Positions 36,624 through 42,819 of a stretch of DNA of 64,000 bases are shown here, in pieces; within the stretch, counting starts at the first letter, position 1; each line of letters starts with the position of its first letter. The DNA lies in NCBI GenBank assembly GCA_016935015.1, contig JAFGRT010000122.1:1-64000 (forward strand), in the 5' to 3' direction. The DNA comes from Acidobacteriota bacterium (lineage in GTDB: Bacteria > Acidobacteriota > JAAYUB01). A program made the translations under genes and the position numbers. The notes beneath the pieces were generated by a model, which was given only the letters and a program-made list of their open reading frames with translations, was not told the origin of the DNA and did no database searches.

Positions 36624-36646
36624 GAAGTTCGGAGGTGGACAAGAAT

Positions 36647-37651
36647 ATGAATGCAAGATTCGGTCCCATCATCGTGCTGCTTACCTTTGCCGCCTTTTGT
36701 AGCGGGACAATTTCCGCCCAGCAGAAGGAAAAACAGAAAGGGCAGGAAGAGCAGGTGGAAGGGGTTTCCAGCATCACGGTGAAAATTCCGGCCGTGACCG
36801 TAAATGTTACGGTCACGGACAAGCGCGGCAACCTGATCAAGGGTTTGACCAAGGATTATTTCAAGGTTTACGAGGACGGTAAGGAGCAGGAGATCACCAA
36901 TTTCTTTCCGGATGAGGCGCCACTGAGCATCGTACTGCTGCTGGAGACCAGTCGCCAGATCCAGGGACTGGAGTACGATTACTGGTATGCCACTCTGGAC
37001 TTCATCCGCAACCTGCGCCGGGAGGATTACTGCGCGCTGGTCACATACGACATGAAACCGCGTATCGCCGCCGATTTCACCCTGGACAAGAACAAGATCA
37101 TCAGTGAGGCGAACGTCAATCTCTATTTCAAGGGATTCAACGAGAGCAACCTCAGCGACGCCATCATTTTTGTGCTGGAGCGCATGGCCGAAGTGGATGG
37201 AAAGAAAGCGGTGGTTCTGCTCTCCACGGGATTGGACACATTCAGCAAGCGCAACTATGACGACGCCATCGAAGTGGCCGAATCATCGGACACGGTGGTT
37301 TACGCCATCTCCATGGGTCAGCTGGTCCGGCTGCGTTATGAAACGCGGATGTCCGACATTCTGCAATCGGATTTCCGTTTTGCCGACCTCCGGTTGAAGA
37401 CATTCGCCAAAATCACCGGTGGCGAGTCCTATTTCCCGCGGTTCGCCACCGAATATCCGGCGATATTCCAGAACATCCTGCTCTACCTTCGTTACCAGTA
37501 TACCCTGGCGTATACACCCCGGAATCAGGATACGGACGACGAGAAACGAAAGATCGAAGTCAAGGCGTTCTTCGATATGGACGGTGACGGCAAGATGGAC
37601 GAGTTGAAAGTTCGCCACAAGAAAACGTATCGCGTAGCCATATCCGAGTAG
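36647..37651 (+). CDS. VWFA-related domain secreted protein (acidobacterial type)
   Basis: This 334-residue exported protein has a signal peptide (about 1-24, ending in TISAQ). It then shows the VWFA-related acidobacterial domain pattern (TIGR03436 type): VNVTVTDKRGNLIKGLTKDYFKVYEDGKEQEI, then a von Willebrand A-like fold (about 85-270). The metal-site motif is weakened: the DxSxS position reads LLETSRQ. The C-terminus has TLAYTPRN and a DMDGDGKMDELKV calcium-loop-like stretch. These proteins are abundant in Acidobacteriota; function is unknown. GGAGG precedes the ATG. Confidence 0.82.
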   Translation: MNARFGPIIVLLTFAAFCSGTISAQQKEKQKGQEEQVEGVSSITVKIPAVTVNVTVTDKRGNLIKGLTKDYFKVYEDGKEQEITNFFPDEAPLSIVLLLETSRQIQGLEYDYWYATLDFIRNLRREDYCALVTYDMKPRIAADFTLDKNKIISEANVNLYFKGFNESNLSDAIIFVLERMAEVDGKKAVVLLSTGLDTFSKRNYDDAIEVAESSDTVVYAISMGQLVRLRYETRMSDILQSDFRFADLRLKTFAKITGGESYFPRFATEYPAIFQNILLYLRYQYTLAYTPRNQDTDDEKRKIEVKAFFDMDGDGKMDELKVRHKKTYRVAISE

Positions 37652-37809: not shown

Positions 37810-39369
37810 ATGAAACGCATCATCCGGCCGGCTGAAATTCTTCTGGTGATGGGAATGCTGACTTTCGCCGGACCGGCGGCGGGAGCAAACGAACTGCCCC
37901 ACCGACCACCGGCTGTGGCCGGGATGTGGTATGCCGCGGATGCCACCCAATTGCGGGCGCAGGTGGAGGGGTACCTGGTGCAGGCGGAGGAGGCCGTCCA
38001 ACGTCGTGCCGGTGAAGTTCCGGTAGCCCTGATTGTGCCGCATGCCGGCTACATCTATTCGGGCAAAACGGCAGCCAAGGCCTATGTCCATTTGCGCGGC
38101 ACATCGTTCCGGCGGGCCTTGCTAATCGGTCCTTCTCATCGTGCCATGTTCAGCGGAGTCTCCATTCCGGCCGTATCCGCTTATGACACGCCTCTGGGCA
38201 GTGTCCGGCTGGATCGAGCCGCCTGCGATGGACTTCTTGAAAATCCCTTGGTCGGCAGTCATCCGGACGCCCATGTGGAAGAGCACAACCTCGAGGCCCA
38301 GCTGCCGTTTCTGCAGGTTCTATTCCCGGACATCTGCATCGTACCCATGTTGACCGGGCAACTGACAATCCACCAGATGGATCAGCTGGCCGATCTGATC
38401 TCCCCTCTGCTGGACAGTTCCACCATACTCATCATTTCCAGTGATTTCACACACTACGGTTCGAACTTCCGGTATGTGCCGTTTCATGAAAACGTGGCGA
38501 CCAATCTGGAAAAATACGCCCGGACAGCTGGCCGGCACATCACCCGACTGGATTTCGAGGGCTTTATGAGCCATTGCCAAGAGACCCGCGACACGATCTG
38601 CGGCCAGCAGGGTATCGGCGTGGCCATCAAGGTTCTGCAGAACATGGCCGGGAACAAGAAGATCAACGGGAGCATCGAGGGCTTCGCGACTTCCGGCGAG
38701 ATCACCCATGACTGGACGACCTCGGTGAGTTACCTGGCCGTCCTGTTCACCGATCCACCTTTGTCCCCGGCCACAGAACACACTTGCCCGGCGGATCCGG
38801 CCCCATCCTTCGCCCTGAGCGACGAGGAAAAAGAAACCCTTCTCCGCCTGGCCCGGCATACTCTGACTGCTTACCTCGCCACGGGCAAAATGCCGGAATT
38901 CGATTCGGAGCGATTCAAGCTGACACCCTCGCTCTGCGAACAGTGCGGCGCCTTCGTCACCCTGAACAAGAGGCACCAACTGCGGGGGTGCATCGGTTAC
39001 GTGGTGGCGGTCAAGCCGCTCTATGTGGCCGTGCAGGAGATGGTCATCAACGCGGCGGTACGCGATCCCCGCTTCCCGCCCGTTACGGCTGCGGAATTGT
39101 CCGAAATCAAAATGGAGATCTCCGTGCTGTCTCCCTTGGAGCCGTGCGCTGATCCGAACCATGTTACGGTCGGCCGGCATGGATTGGTGATTCAAAAAGA
39201 TGGCCGGTCAGGTTTGCTGCTTCCCCAGGTGCCGGTGGAATGGGGTTGGGACCGGACGCAGTTCCTGCGACAGGTTTGCGCCAAGGCCGGTCTGCCCTCC
39301 GAAGCTTACAAGGAGCAGGACGCCGTCCTGTATGTTTTTACCGCCGAGGTGTTTCATGAGCCGGAGTAG
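37810..39369 (+). CDS. Memo-AMMECR1 fusion (AmmeMemoRadiSam proteins B and A)
   Basis: The protein is 519 residues long. A signal peptide (about 1-25) is followed by a Memo-like domain (about 30-300) with the expected histidines in PHAGYIYSG and GPSHRAMF, EEHNLEAQLPFL and the cysteine in TICGQQGIG. An AMMECR1 domain follows (about 335-515, with LRGCIGY). Memo and AMMECR1 proteins occur with a radical SAM enzyme in the AmmeMemoRadiSam system, whose reaction is unknown. GAGGAGG precedes the ATG. Its last 14 nt overlap the DUF362 gene. The signal peptide is unexpected for a family usually treated as cytoplasmic. Confidence 0.88.
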   Translation: MKRIIRPAEILLVMGMLTFAGPAAGANELPHRPPAVAGMWYAADATQLRAQVEGYLVQAEEAVQRRAGEVPVALIVPHAGYIYSGKTAAKAYVHLRGTSFRRALLIGPSHRAMFSGVSIPAVSAYDTPLGSVRLDRAACDGLLENPLVGSHPDAHVEEHNLEAQLPFLQVLFPDICIVPMLTGQLTIHQMDQLADLISPLLDSSTILIISSDFTHYGSNFRYVPFHENVATNLEKYARTAGRHITRLDFEGFMSHCQETRDTICGQQGIGVAIKVLQNMAGNKKINGSIEGFATSGEITHDWTTSVSYLAVLFTDPPLSPATEHTCPADPAPSFALSDEEKETLLRLARHTLTAYLATGKMPEFDSERFKLTPSLCEQCGAFVTLNKRHQLRGCIGYVVAVKPLYVAVQEMVINAAVRDPRFPPVTAAELSEIKMEISVLSPLEPCADPNHVTVGRHGLVIQKDGRSGLLLPQVPVEWGWDRTQFLRQVCAKAGLPSEAYKEQDAVLYVFTAEVFHEPE

Positions 39370-40354
39370 GCGGCATTTTCTCCGGTGCAGCGGGTTGAGC
39401 CTGCTGGCTGCCCCGATCGTGGGGCCCATGTCATCGCCTGTTTTTCGCAACGGGTATGCCGAGTCGATGTCCCTCGATCGCTGGCGGGGTCGGGTCGTGG
39501 TGGCCCGCAATTCCGGGTACGACTCCTTTTCGAAGAATCCGGCCGGATTGCTGGATCAGGGATTGGCCGCCCTGCTGGGAACGGAACGAGGGAGTGACGC
39601 CTGGCGGCGTCTGTTCCGGCGTGAAGATGTGGTGGCCGTGAAGGTAAACGCCCTGGCCGGTCCCCGCTTGTCTCCGGGCTGGCCGCTGGTACAGGCAGTG
39701 GTGGATGGCCTGAAAACCGCCGGTGTCCCGGCCGGCCAGATTATCGTCTGGGATCGTTCCTCACGGGAGCTGAAGCGTCTGGGCTATCCGGTGAACACAT
39801 CCGGTGACGGCGTCAAGGTTTTCGGCACGGACGCCCTGCGACAGGGCTATGAGGAAACCATCACCCGGGCCGGCAGTGTCGGCTCCTGTTTTTCCCGGAT
39901 CATTGCCCGCTACGCCACCGCCGTCATCAATGTGGGGGTGCTCAAGGACCACGACCTGGCCGGGATTTCCGTATTGCTGAAAAATTTCTACGGAGCGATT
40001 CACAATCCCAACAAATACCATGACAACAACTGTTCGCCCTATGTGGCCCATGTGAACAGTCATCCCGATATCCGGCAGAAACTGCGACTCAATATCGTGG
40101 ATGCGCCGGTCGGCCAGTATCACGGCGGGCCGGCGTTCAACAACCGCTACACCTGGACGTTCGGCGGTTTGCTGCTGGCCGTGGACGCCGTGGCCGCCGA
40201 CCGCGTGGCCTTGGACCTGATCCAGCGGCAACGACAGAGTGCCGGCCTGCGAACGCTGCGTCAGGACAACCGCTACCCCGCCTATATCGACGTCGCCGGC
40301 GAAATGGGACTGGGTGAGGCAACGCTGTCGGCGATCCGGCGAATCGAGGTTTAG
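39356..40354 (+). CDS. DUF362 protein with Tat-type signal
   Basis: This 332-residue DUF362 protein begins with a twin-arginine signal (SRSRRHFLRCSGLSLLAAP), so it is probably exported folded. DUF362 signatures include EDVVAVKVNALAGP, AVINVGVLKDH and SVLLKNFYGAIHNP. Some DUF362 proteins carry extra 4Fe-4S ferredoxin domains; this one does not. The ATG lies inside the end of the Memo-AMMECR1 gene and the next gene starts 3 nt after its stop, so it is part of a tight operon. The function of DUF362 is unknown. Confidence 0.85.
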   Translation: MSRSRRHFLRCSGLSLLAAPIVGPMSSPVFRNGYAESMSLDRWRGRVVVARNSGYDSFSKNPAGLLDQGLAALLGTERGSDAWRRLFRREDVVAVKVNALAGPRLSPGWPLVQAVVDGLKTAGVPAGQIIVWDRSSRELKRLGYPVNTSGDGVKVFGTDALRQGYEETITRAGSVGSCFSRIIARYATAVINVGVLKDHDLAGISVLLKNFYGAIHNPNKYHDNNCSPYVAHVNSHPDIRQKLRLNIVDAPVGQYHGGPAFNNRYTWTFGGLLLAVDAVAADRVALDLIQRQRQSAGLRTLRQDNRYPAYIDVAGEMGLGEATLSAIRRIEV

Positions 40355-40357
40355 AGT

Positions 40358-41521
40358 ATGAACTCCATAAATCGCAGGCATATGATGCGGCTGATGCTCC
40401 TCGGGAGTGGCGCATACTCCCTGGGGCAGGACCGGGCACCTTCCAGCGGCAGTTCCGTGAATCTGGATGATCTCCAGTTCAAGGCGGAGCCATCCTTGCG
40501 GCCCGTGGAGGCCATGTTCTGGGAGAAGCAACCCCAGGACAAGAAGGTCAAGTGTACCCTCTGCCCGCACGAATGTGTCGTGGCCGATATGGAACGGGGA
40601 ACCTGCGGAGTACGTGAGAATCGTGATGGCACGTATTACACACTGGTCCATTCCCGGTTGTGCGCTGCACACCTGGATCCCATCGAAAAAAAGCCGTTGT
40701 TTCACTATCTTCCCGGAACCAAAGCATTTTCCATTGCCACACCCGGCTGTAACCTGGAATGCAAATATTGCCAGAACTGGCAAATATCCCAGTTTCGGCC
40801 TGAGCAGATCGAGTGTATCGAGGCATCGCCCGAGGTATTGGTGGCCAATGCCAGTCGGAACGCTGCGCCGACCATCGCCTTTACCTATACCGAGCCGGTG
40901 ATTTTCTATGAATATATGTACGATATTGCTGTTGCCGCCCGGCCGGCGGGCATCGGCAGCGTCATGATCACCAGCGGCTTCATCAACCGGGAGCCACTGC
41001 GGAAACTAATCCCGGAACTGGCCGCCATCAAGGTGGATTTCAAGGGCTTCACCGACGAATTTTACCGGACTATTTGTGGCGGCGAACTGCAGCCGGTCCT
41101 GGATGCCCTGGTCACCATTCGCCGCGAGGGTCTCTGGCTGGAGCTGGTGGTTCTCATTGTGCCCACCCTCAATGATTCGATTGAAGAGAACCGAAAGATG
41201 TTTCATTGGATCAAAGATAACCTCGGCAGCCATGTACCTCTGCACCTGAGCCGATTTCATCCCACCTATAAGCTGAAAAATCTGCCGGCCACACCGGTGT
41301 CCACATTGGAACGCCTCCACAGTGAAGCCCGGGATGCCGGTTTGAACTACGTCTACCTTGGCAATGTTCAGTGGGGGCATCCGGCCGAGAACACGTATTG
41401 TCACTCCTGCGGCAAGATGCTGATTCGTCGCTACGGCTTTCAGGTAGTGGAGAATCACCTGGACAAGGGGCACTGTCCCCACTGCCGGCAATCCATCCCC
41501 GGAGTGTTCACAAAATCATGA
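40358..41521 (+). CDS. AmmeMemoRadiSam radical SAM enzyme
   Basis: This 387-residue radical SAM protein has the cluster motif CNLECKYC (Cys131, Cys135, Cys138). It is preceded by a cysteine-rich segment (Cys66, 69, 73, 83) and followed by a C-terminal zinc-ribbon-like pair (CHSCGKM and CPHC). It matches the AmrS/PflA-like enzyme of the AmmeMemoRadiSam system. The N-terminus (NRRHMMRLMLLGSGAYSLG) looks like a weak twin-arginine signal. Its stop overlaps the ATG of the LarA-like gene (ATGA). The reaction is unknown. Confidence 0.9.
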   Translation: MNSINRRHMMRLMLLGSGAYSLGQDRAPSSGSSVNLDDLQFKAEPSLRPVEAMFWEKQPQDKKVKCTLCPHECVVADMERGTCGVRENRDGTYYTLVHSRLCAAHLDPIEKKPLFHYLPGTKAFSIATPGCNLECKYCQNWQISQFRPEQIECIEASPEVLVANASRNAAPTIAFTYTEPVIFYEYMYDIAVAARPAGIGSVMITSGFINREPLRKLIPELAAIKVDFKGFTDEFYRTICGGELQPVLDALVTIRREGLWLELVVLIVPTLNDSIEENRKMFHWIKDNLGSHVPLHLSRFHPTYKLKNLPATPVSTLERLHSEARDAGLNYVYLGNVQWGHPAENTYCHSCGKMLIRRYGFQVVENHLDKGHCPHCRQSIPGVFTKS

Positions 41522-42819
41522 ATCTGTCTCTGAAGTATAACAGGACCGAAATTGAGCTCAACCTGCCGGCGGCGCGTTTTCAGTTATTGCTGCCGCCAAT
41601 AGGAGGCAGAGCAGGGGAATCAGATCCCCTGCGGGAAGGGCGGTGTTTCGACGAACCGGTTCAGCGCCCGCCCTTGCACGAGTTCCTTGAAAACAAGCGT
41701 CGCATCCTGTTGGTGGTGTCGGATGCCACCCGCCGCACCGGTTCGGCGGAGGTCGTTTCCGAGCTGGCAAAATACTTTATAAAATATGATATAAAATACG
41801 AAGAATTCAACATAATCGTCGCAACCGGAATTCATCGTCCACCGACCGAATCGGAGATTCCTGCGCTGCTGGGGGAACAGTGGCCCGCCCGGGCCCGCCT
41901 GTTGGCCTACCGGGCCGAAGATGAGAGTCACCTGGTCTATGTCGGCCGGACTTCGTTTGAAAACCGGATCTATCTGCACCATTCTTTGATCCATGCCGAT
42001 GCGGTTCTCATCTGCGGCGGCGTGGGTTTTCACTATTTCGCGGGCTTCAGCGGCGGACGCAAGAGCATTCTGCCCGGACTGGCCGGCCTCGAATCTCTGA
42101 GTGCCAATCACAACCTTATTTTTCATGGGGCGGAGGAAGGCCGGCATCCCAGGGCCACGACCGCCTCCCTGAATGGCAATCCGGTGCACGAAGACATGAT
42201 GGAAGCCATGGAATTGTTCGGAACAGACCAGATCTTTCTGATCAATACGCTGTTTTCGGCCGACGGCACGCGCAGCGACATCATCTGCGGTCACCCGGTT
42301 CATTCCCATCGCGAGGCCTGTCGCCGCTATCTGGACGGGCATTCCGTGGTCATTCCGCGGCCGGCCGATCTGGTGGTGGCCAGCGCCGGCGGTTTCCCGC
42401 GTGATATCAATATGATCCAGTCCCACAAGGCCATTGAGATGGCCCGCTATGCCCTACGGCCGGGGGGCACCCTGATCATGCTCGCCGCTTGCCAGGAAGG
42501 GATGGGGCATCCGGCCTTTTTCCCCTGGTTTCGCTTCGAAACGGAAGCAGAGTTCCGGCGGGAATTGCGCCGCAATTACGTCGTCAATGGACAGACGGCA
42601 CTGGCTCTGTTCGAAAAAAGCCGGCGTTACCGTATTTACCTCGCTTCTGAGCTGGATCCGGCCGCAGTTCGACAGATGGGCATGCAGCCCCTTCCGCCGG
42701 CGGCGAGCGCCATTCAGGCTCTTCTGGAAGGGGAATTTAGAGCGGCCGTGGGTTATGTGCTGCCCGAAGCGGCGACGACCTTTTGTCAGCCGGCGGATGC
42801 TCGTATCGAGCGGCCGTGA
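41518..42819 (+). CDS. LarA-like nickel-pincer racemase family protein
   Basis: This 433-residue protein aligns with lactate racemase LarA. The residues that bind the nickel-pincer cofactor and act as acid/base in LarA (His108, His174, Lys184, His200 of the Lactobacillus plantarum enzyme) have counterparts at His106 (ATGIHRPPT), His172 (FHYFAGFSGG), Lys182 (GGRKSILPG) and His198 (SANHNL), a constant offset of two. It should therefore bind a pincer cofactor and racemise or epimerise a 2-hydroxyacid. The larB, larC and larE genes needed for the cofactor are not in the window. It is coupled by ATGA overlap to the radical SAM gene. Confidence 0.85.
   Translation: MNLSLKYNRTEIELNLPAARFQLLLPPIGGRAGESDPLREGRCFDEPVQRPPLHEFLENKRRILLVVSDATRRTGSAEVVSELAKYFIKYDIKYEEFNIIVATGIHRPPTESEIPALLGEQWPARARLLAYRAEDESHLVYVGRTSFENRIYLHHSLIHADAVLICGGVGFHYFAGFSGGRKSILPGLAGLESLSANHNLIFHGAEEGRHPRATTASLNGNPVHEDMMEAMELFGTDQIFLINTLFSADGTRSDIICGHPVHSHREACRRYLDGHSVVIPRPADLVVASAGGFPRDINMIQSHKAIEMARYALRPGGTLIMLAACQEGMGHPAFFPWFRFETEAEFRRELRRNYVVNGQTALALFEKSRRYRIYLASELDPAAVRQMGMQPLPPAASAIQALLEGEFRAAVGYVLPEAATTFCQPADARIERP

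Follow-up and report, generated by a model that had tools for sequence, protein, structure and literature searches.

Can an enzyme of the radical S-adenosylmethionine (SAM) family work outside the cytoplasm? Such enzymes are treated as cytoplasmic because SAM and low-potential electrons are needed, and to our knowledge they are known only from inside cells. The question is raised by an operon at positions 37810-41521 (+ strand) of the window, a 64,000-nucleotide stretch of contig JAFGRT010000122.1 from the genome of an Acidobacteriota bacterium (GCA_016935015.1, a draft of 237 contigs). It encodes the three families of the AmmeMemoRadiSam system, namely Memo fused to AMMECR1 and the radical-SAM enzyme AmrS, together with a DUF362 protein. 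Judged from the N-termini, the whole set (AmrS, DUF362 and Memo-AMMECR1) is very probably exported. That the operon is a conserved extracytoplasmic variant of AmmeMemoRadiSam, with radical-SAM catalysis taking place outside, is somewhat probable.

The operon and its export signals

All three open reading frames were found tightly packed, each preceded by a Shine-Dalgarno-like sequence. The Memo-AMMECR1 fusion (519 aa; 37810..39369, +) scored 216 bits against TIGR04336 (AmmeMemoRadiSam protein B, Memo; curated cut-off 26) and 181 bits against TIGR04335 (protein A, AMMECR1; curated cut-off 99). The RGCIG motif of AMMECR1 was identified as LRGCIG at residues 391-396. The fusion begins with a textbook signal peptide of the general secretory (Sec) type with an AxA site (MKRIIRPAEILLVMGMLTFAGPAAGA, followed by N; 37810..37887, +), whose hydrophobic core reached 2.25 and which is likely cleaved after AGA. 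The DUF362 protein (332 aa; 39356..40354, +; PF04015, 56 bits, curated cut-off 24) starts at the ATG at 39356 with the N-terminus MSRSRRHFLRCSGLSLLAAPIVG, and its gene overlaps the end of the fusion gene by 14 bases. Its twin-arginine translocation (Tat) signal (39356..39466, +) begins MSRSRRHFLRCSGLSLLAAPIVGPMSSP and combines the motif SRRHFLR with a hydrophobic h-region of 1.88. AmrS (387 aa; 40358..41521, +; TIGR04337, 358.7 bits, curated cut-off 220) starts 3 bases past the DUF362 stop codon with the N-terminus MNSINRRHMMRLMLLGSGAYSLG. Its Tat-like signal (MNSINRRHMMRLMLLGSGAYSLGQDRA; 40358..40450, +) consists of NRRHMMR and a weak hydrophobic stretch.

Signals were assigned by a rule of our own calibration based on hydrophobicity and motif, the Tat rule being RRx[hydrophobic] followed by an h-region. 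In an E. coli control, 1 of 41 coding sequences, a membrane transporter, was called Tat-like, and about three false Sec calls were obtained among cytosolic proteins. The Tat features were found strongly in DUF362 and weakly in AmrS (h-region 1.23, threshold 1.15), and TatC is encoded in the same genome (contig C121). When the N-terminus of the window AmrS was shuffled, the Tat call was reached in 0.6% of the trials. Among 15 aligned exported AmrS proteins, the N-terminus varies except at Met1 and the RR pair (R6, R7), which never change, and family members carry SRRDMAKLFTLAACGCA; both the start and the motif are therefore genuine, and a start-site artefact was ruled out. Over all Tat-class AmrS proteins the strict motif with h-region was present in 57 of 63, versus 3.5% of shuffled sequences, and the RR pair of DUF362 is conserved in most of the corresponding alignment (A3).

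The preliminary description of this DNA had noted a Sec signal on the fusion, a good Tat signal on DUF362 and a weaker Tat-like start on AmrS, all of which were borne out by the rule and by comparison with homologues. It had also considered that the true starts might lie downstream or that the segments might be uncleaved cytoplasmic helices. The former does not hold, given the conserved Met1 and RR of AmrS, and the replacement of Tat by Sec signals in relatives argues against the latter.

The cysteines C131, C135 and C138 of the CxxxCxxC motif were kept in 100% of the exported AmrS sequences and are present in the window protein. The TEP motif (GGEP-like) is invariant in the exported forms (E179 and P180 in the window), and the N-terminal cysteines were found in every one of them. 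Radical-SAM positions, including these two motifs, are equally conserved in exported and cytosolic AmrS; the C-terminal C351 and C376 were kept at about 85% in Sec-type forms. In Memo, H49, H81 and C244, which correspond to the iron ligands of MEMO1 (PMC11081632), were conserved in at least 42 of 44 proteins including the window fusion. Judged by these positions, the exported AmrS and Memo proteins are not decaying relics, because the radical-SAM and Memo metal residues are conserved.

A second AmrS (contig C106; MKEAYLYEKL...) and a second Memo (contig C65; MHIRRTAVAGTFYP...) were found elsewhere in the genome, both without signal; the exported set is therefore an additional one. Two divergent Memo-family proteins are also encoded (G000:C213:2509-3324, L010; G000:C98:15-755, L011), one of them inside a longer protein of 522 aa.

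Distribution of signal-bearing AmrS

Homologues were collected from 60 relatives and named genomes by similarity to exported AmrS, so that frequencies in this sample are not those of nature. Canonical Tat-signal AmrS was found in Acidobacteriota, Planctomycetota, Poribacteria, KSB1, Calditrichota, Latescibacterota, WOR-3, Bacteroidota, Ignavibacteriota and one Altiarchaeota archaeon, and Sec-type or lipoprotein-like signals in Omnitrophota and others. Of the named relatives, the nearest is L042, a draft genome of Acidobacteriota whose AmrS is 61% identical to that of the window. The length of the N-terminal extension is bimodal, with at most 23 residues in the 53 forms called cytosolic and at least 25 in the signal-bearing forms; a single form combined a long N-terminus with no recognised signal.

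In a tree of 163 AmrS sequences the export state required 4 changes as first called. This number fell to 1 after reclassification of L086, whose plain Sec signal had escaped the length rule, and with the doubtful start calls of L142 and L084 left aside; a careful 80-sequence tree gave 2 changes. The signal-bearing AmrS proteins thus form what is essentially a single clade, which spans many bacterial phyla and one archaeal lineage; Tat signals prevail among its members. The preliminary description had asked whether exported forms constitute a clade with DUF362: the clade was essentially recovered, but DUF362 marks only part of it, being found near 32 of 84 exported versus 0 of 54 cytosolic AmrS genes.

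TatC was absent from 13 of 20 genomes with Sec-type AmrS versus 1 of 21 with Tat-type AmrS (Fisher p=5e-5), counts to which the incompleteness of draft genomes applies as a caveat. The pattern looks as if AmrS export was maintained on loss of Tat, i.e. as if export were a trait under selection.

Memo-AMMECR1 fusions adjoining exported AmrS nearly always carry a Sec or lipoprotein signal, the exceptions being L067 and the doubtful L084. The stand-alone Memo proteins of L017, L157 and L161 have no signal, and at L108 a signal-less AmrS is paired with a lipoprotein Memo. At L157 (G031:C1:767000-780000; also L019) a signal-less AMMECR1-AmrS gene fusion was observed, with the Memo gene separate.

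Candidate partners and neighbouring genes

The neighbour counts given here share ancestry and are not independent; several further neighbour clusters were discarded as antisense or overlapping-frame open reading frames. In one AmrS subclade (including L162-L177, L112 and L118) the Tat signal is followed by CxxCH-x(8-13)-H and then by the enzyme, in 18 of 18 members. The remaining exported AmrS proteins of the main set lack the motif. Cytochrome-c assembly genes were found in all 16 genomes of the CxxCH type that were tested. The motif with its histidine is probably a built-in haem-c site, the rival assignment being a zinc site.

In 27 of 61 exported AmrS loci, compared with 2 of 46 cytosolic ones, a polytopic membrane protein is encoded nearby that contains a spermidine-synthase domain. 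It matches PF01564 and resembles aminopropyltransferases in structure; instances beside exported AmrS are L056:5814-7997, L066:11132-13261 and L196-L211. The gene order AmrS, Memo-AMMECR1, membrane protein was identified at 13 loci of the CxxCH subclade, with L197 as an exception and two contigs ending early. The SAM-type glycine motif is partly kept in the domain and the usual catalytic Asp appears to be replaced. In 34 of 40 sequences the charge pattern leans to a domain outside the membrane, a pattern that alone cannot place it since the parity is unchanged if neither flanking helix spans; an outward-facing domain may tentatively be proposed. The full-length homologue in the window genome, on contig C75 (L212:7131-9443), faces a gene for a secreted-looking protein (L212:9532-10422) similar to one encoded close to the exported AmrS of L058.

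DsbD_2 transporters were present near 13 of 61 exported versus 0 of 46 cytosolic AmrS loci, mostly beside Sec-type AmrS (CcdA-like proteins at L070, L082, L083, L086, L094, L097, L098, L100 and L104, from Omnitrophota and others). Proteins similar to NapH, NosR or RnfG lie near AmrS in a few loci. NapH/NosR-like polyferredoxins showed no enrichment (6 of 61 exported and 2 of 46 cytosolic loci, p=0.46) and were rejected as a general partner. At L090, L091, L093 and L117 an FMN_bind/polyferredoxin (NosR/NapH-like) gene directly precedes or overlaps an AmrS gene without the N-terminal segment, and its product is a possible electron donor. Candidate suppliers of SAM or electrons outside are the spermidine-synthase-like protein, DsbD_2 and the NapH/NosR-like ferredoxins. 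At the window locus none of the CxxCH, spermidine-synthase-like, DsbD_2 or NapH/NosR/RnfG-like parts was found next door; one FMN_bind protein is encoded elsewhere in the genome.

The AlphaFold2 model of DUF362 (pLDDT 86) matched LarA-type nickel-pincer enzymes first in Foldseek (9q3j, 7s91, 9eia). With E-values of about 2e-4 to 1e-3 and TM-scores of 0.40-0.47 these are distant matches. The motif HxxxGxSxxxK places H199 and K209 at LarA spacing, and DUF362 and LarA both belong to Pfam clan CL0471 (PMC11770544). Sequence profiles gave no proof of kinship, as hhalign was not significant, even though its top-scoring local alignment lay on this H...K motif; the link comes from the fold search and the Pfam clan. 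According to the model, DUF362 is a protein of LarA-like fold, and a metal or nucleotide is a possible cofactor.

The gene downstream of AmrS (41518..42819, +), which overlaps the AmrS stop codon by 4 bases, encodes a LarA-like protein of the nickel-pincer racemase family without signal (PF09861, 153 bits; NCBIfam LarAH10 below cut-off). The gene order is shared by genomes related at the level of family and order (L029, L030, L035, L037 and L042), and the window genome also encodes LarC. Directly upstream of the operon, at 36635-37651, lies the gene of a secreted-looking VWA protein (TIGR03436).

Interpretation and comparison with known systems

If catalysis does take place outside, AmrS would fold and take up its [4Fe-4S] cluster in the cytoplasm, cross the membrane by Tat and work at the outer face next to the Sec-exported Memo-AMMECR1 protein. 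Its likely target would be this protein or a small molecule that the protein holds. Reduction could proceed by a membrane electron path, through the fused haem c in one subclade and NapH/NosR/RnfG-like or DsbD_2 proteins in others, and in the window organism through a generic pathway. Where the spermidine-synthase-like membrane protein is present, it would deal with SAM or a related nucleoside. Electron entry through haem c on AmrS, combined with presentation of SAM or a nucleoside by this membrane protein with exported Memo-AMMECR1, is a tentative proposal that we hold to be possible, and it applies to the subclades with these parts. The preliminary description had regarded a periplasmic radical-SAM enzyme as a biochemical puzzle; this stands, and the CxxCH motifs and membrane partners of the relatives suggest a possible solution.

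Several observations weigh against catalysis outside. The Tat signal of the window AmrS is weak. CxxCH was not found in this protein, and no spermidine-synthase-like partner lies beside it, the full-length homologue of this genome being confined to contig C75. In several loci, from Aminicenantes-like and other genomes (L023, L024, L026, L054, L058, L059, L068), DUF362 has no recognised signal, and in some of them its gene overlaps the AmrS start; these proteins may be Tat hitchhikers or cytosolic partners. AmrS proteins without the N-terminal segment (L090, L091, L093, L103, L108, L117) lie inside or adjoin the exported clade, so that one loss of export is possible, and this subgroup partly retains redox and membrane neighbours. 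The link between Sec signals and missing TatC comes from few lineages, and an independent-pairs test with 1 to 4 pairs was not significant. A Sec-type AmrS would need to acquire its cluster outside, and we know of no reason to expect free SAM in the periplasm. Among the papers searched, none was found on exported AmmeMemoRadiSam or on a periplasmic radical-SAM enzyme; a survey of the Memo superfamily reportedly appeared in the Journal of Biological Chemistry in 2019 and possibly mentions secreted sets.

Alternatively, the chemistry of AmrS could be completed in the cytoplasm and the protein be exported later as a spent enzyme or product carrier, with a signal-less DUF362 as Tat hitchhiker. It is established that Tat exports folded, cofactor-loaded proteins and that SAM and low-potential ferredoxin are cytoplasmic, and the signal-less DUF362 proteins beside signal-bearing AmrS fit this sequence of events. 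The Memo-AMMECR1 protein, however, leaves by the Sec or lipoprotein route, normally unfolded, which makes it an unlikely folded partner in the cytoplasm. Sec-type AmrS would likewise cross unfolded, and a genuine haem site at CxxCH would mature only on the outer side. We regard export after catalysis as unlikely, though not negligibly so. It is quite unlikely that exported AmrS has ceased to be a radical-SAM catalyst and uses its Fe-S and zinc-like cysteine sites for electron transfer, metal handling or binding. No SAM source is known beyond the membrane, and some C-terminal cysteines (C351, C376) can be lost in Sec-type forms, both of which would suit such a role; yet exported AmrS conserves CxxxCxxC, TEP and the remaining radical-SAM positions no less than cytosolic AmrS does, and relatives repeatedly encode a SAM-type domain in a neighbouring gene.

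The remaining explanations concern the signals themselves. Some Sec-type N-termini (L087, L102, L110) resemble signal anchors, and the segments could be uncleaved membrane anchors with the catalytic domain turned toward the cytoplasm. Most n-regions are positive, however, which places the domain outside, the Tat motifs are widely conserved and the partners carry cleavable or lipoprotein signals; this arrangement is very improbable. An origin of the signals from wrong start choice or assembly, for which the draft state of the genome and the weak AmrS signal might be cited, is hardly credible, given that Met1 and RR are invariant across genomes, that the same gene order was found in independent assemblies and that the Shine-Dalgarno sites are good.

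A conserved exported clade implies either that SAM and low-potential electrons are available outside or that the family plays a part so far unsuspected; the cytoplasm may not be the only place of radical-SAM chemistry. Memo and AMMECR1 are linked to disease in humans. The exported sets give a handle on their bacterial function, as the partners (DUF362, the spermidine-synthase-like protein and electron carriers) narrow the chemistry.

Among known systems, the solved structure nearest to AmrS by sequence is that of the pyruvate formate-lyase activating enzyme PflA (PDB 3C8F; E 8e-6); AmrS shares the CxxxCxxC core with PflA and the glycyl-radical activases. PflA is cytosolic, AmrS has an additional N-terminal CxxCxxxC...C and C-terminal CxxC...CxxC, and none of the genes around AmrS was recognised as encoding a glycyl-radical substrate. 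In a comparison with MEMO1 (PDB 7KQ8) and LigB-type extradiol dioxygenases, the window Memo conserves the iron ligands of MEMO1, but it is predicted to be exported and is fused to AMMECR1. DUF362 resembles the LarA lactate racemase superfamily in the first matches of its model and in the motif spacing; the profile match is not significant, and DUF362 differs by its predicted export. The recurrent neighbour in relatives shares the spermidine-synthase domain and the multi-transmembrane layout of the fused membrane spermidine synthases (PF01564; NF037959, PRK03612). Its domain, however, lies between two transmembrane blocks, possibly outside, the catalytic Asp appears replaced, and it is not adjacent in the window. 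Compared to AmmeMemoRadiSam itself (TIGR04335, TIGR04336, TIGR04337), the window set has all three families with intact radical-SAM and Memo metal residues, and differs in its export signals, in the fusion of Memo to AMMECR1 and in the accompanying DUF362; to these, relatives add membrane spermidine-synthase-like and redox proteins.

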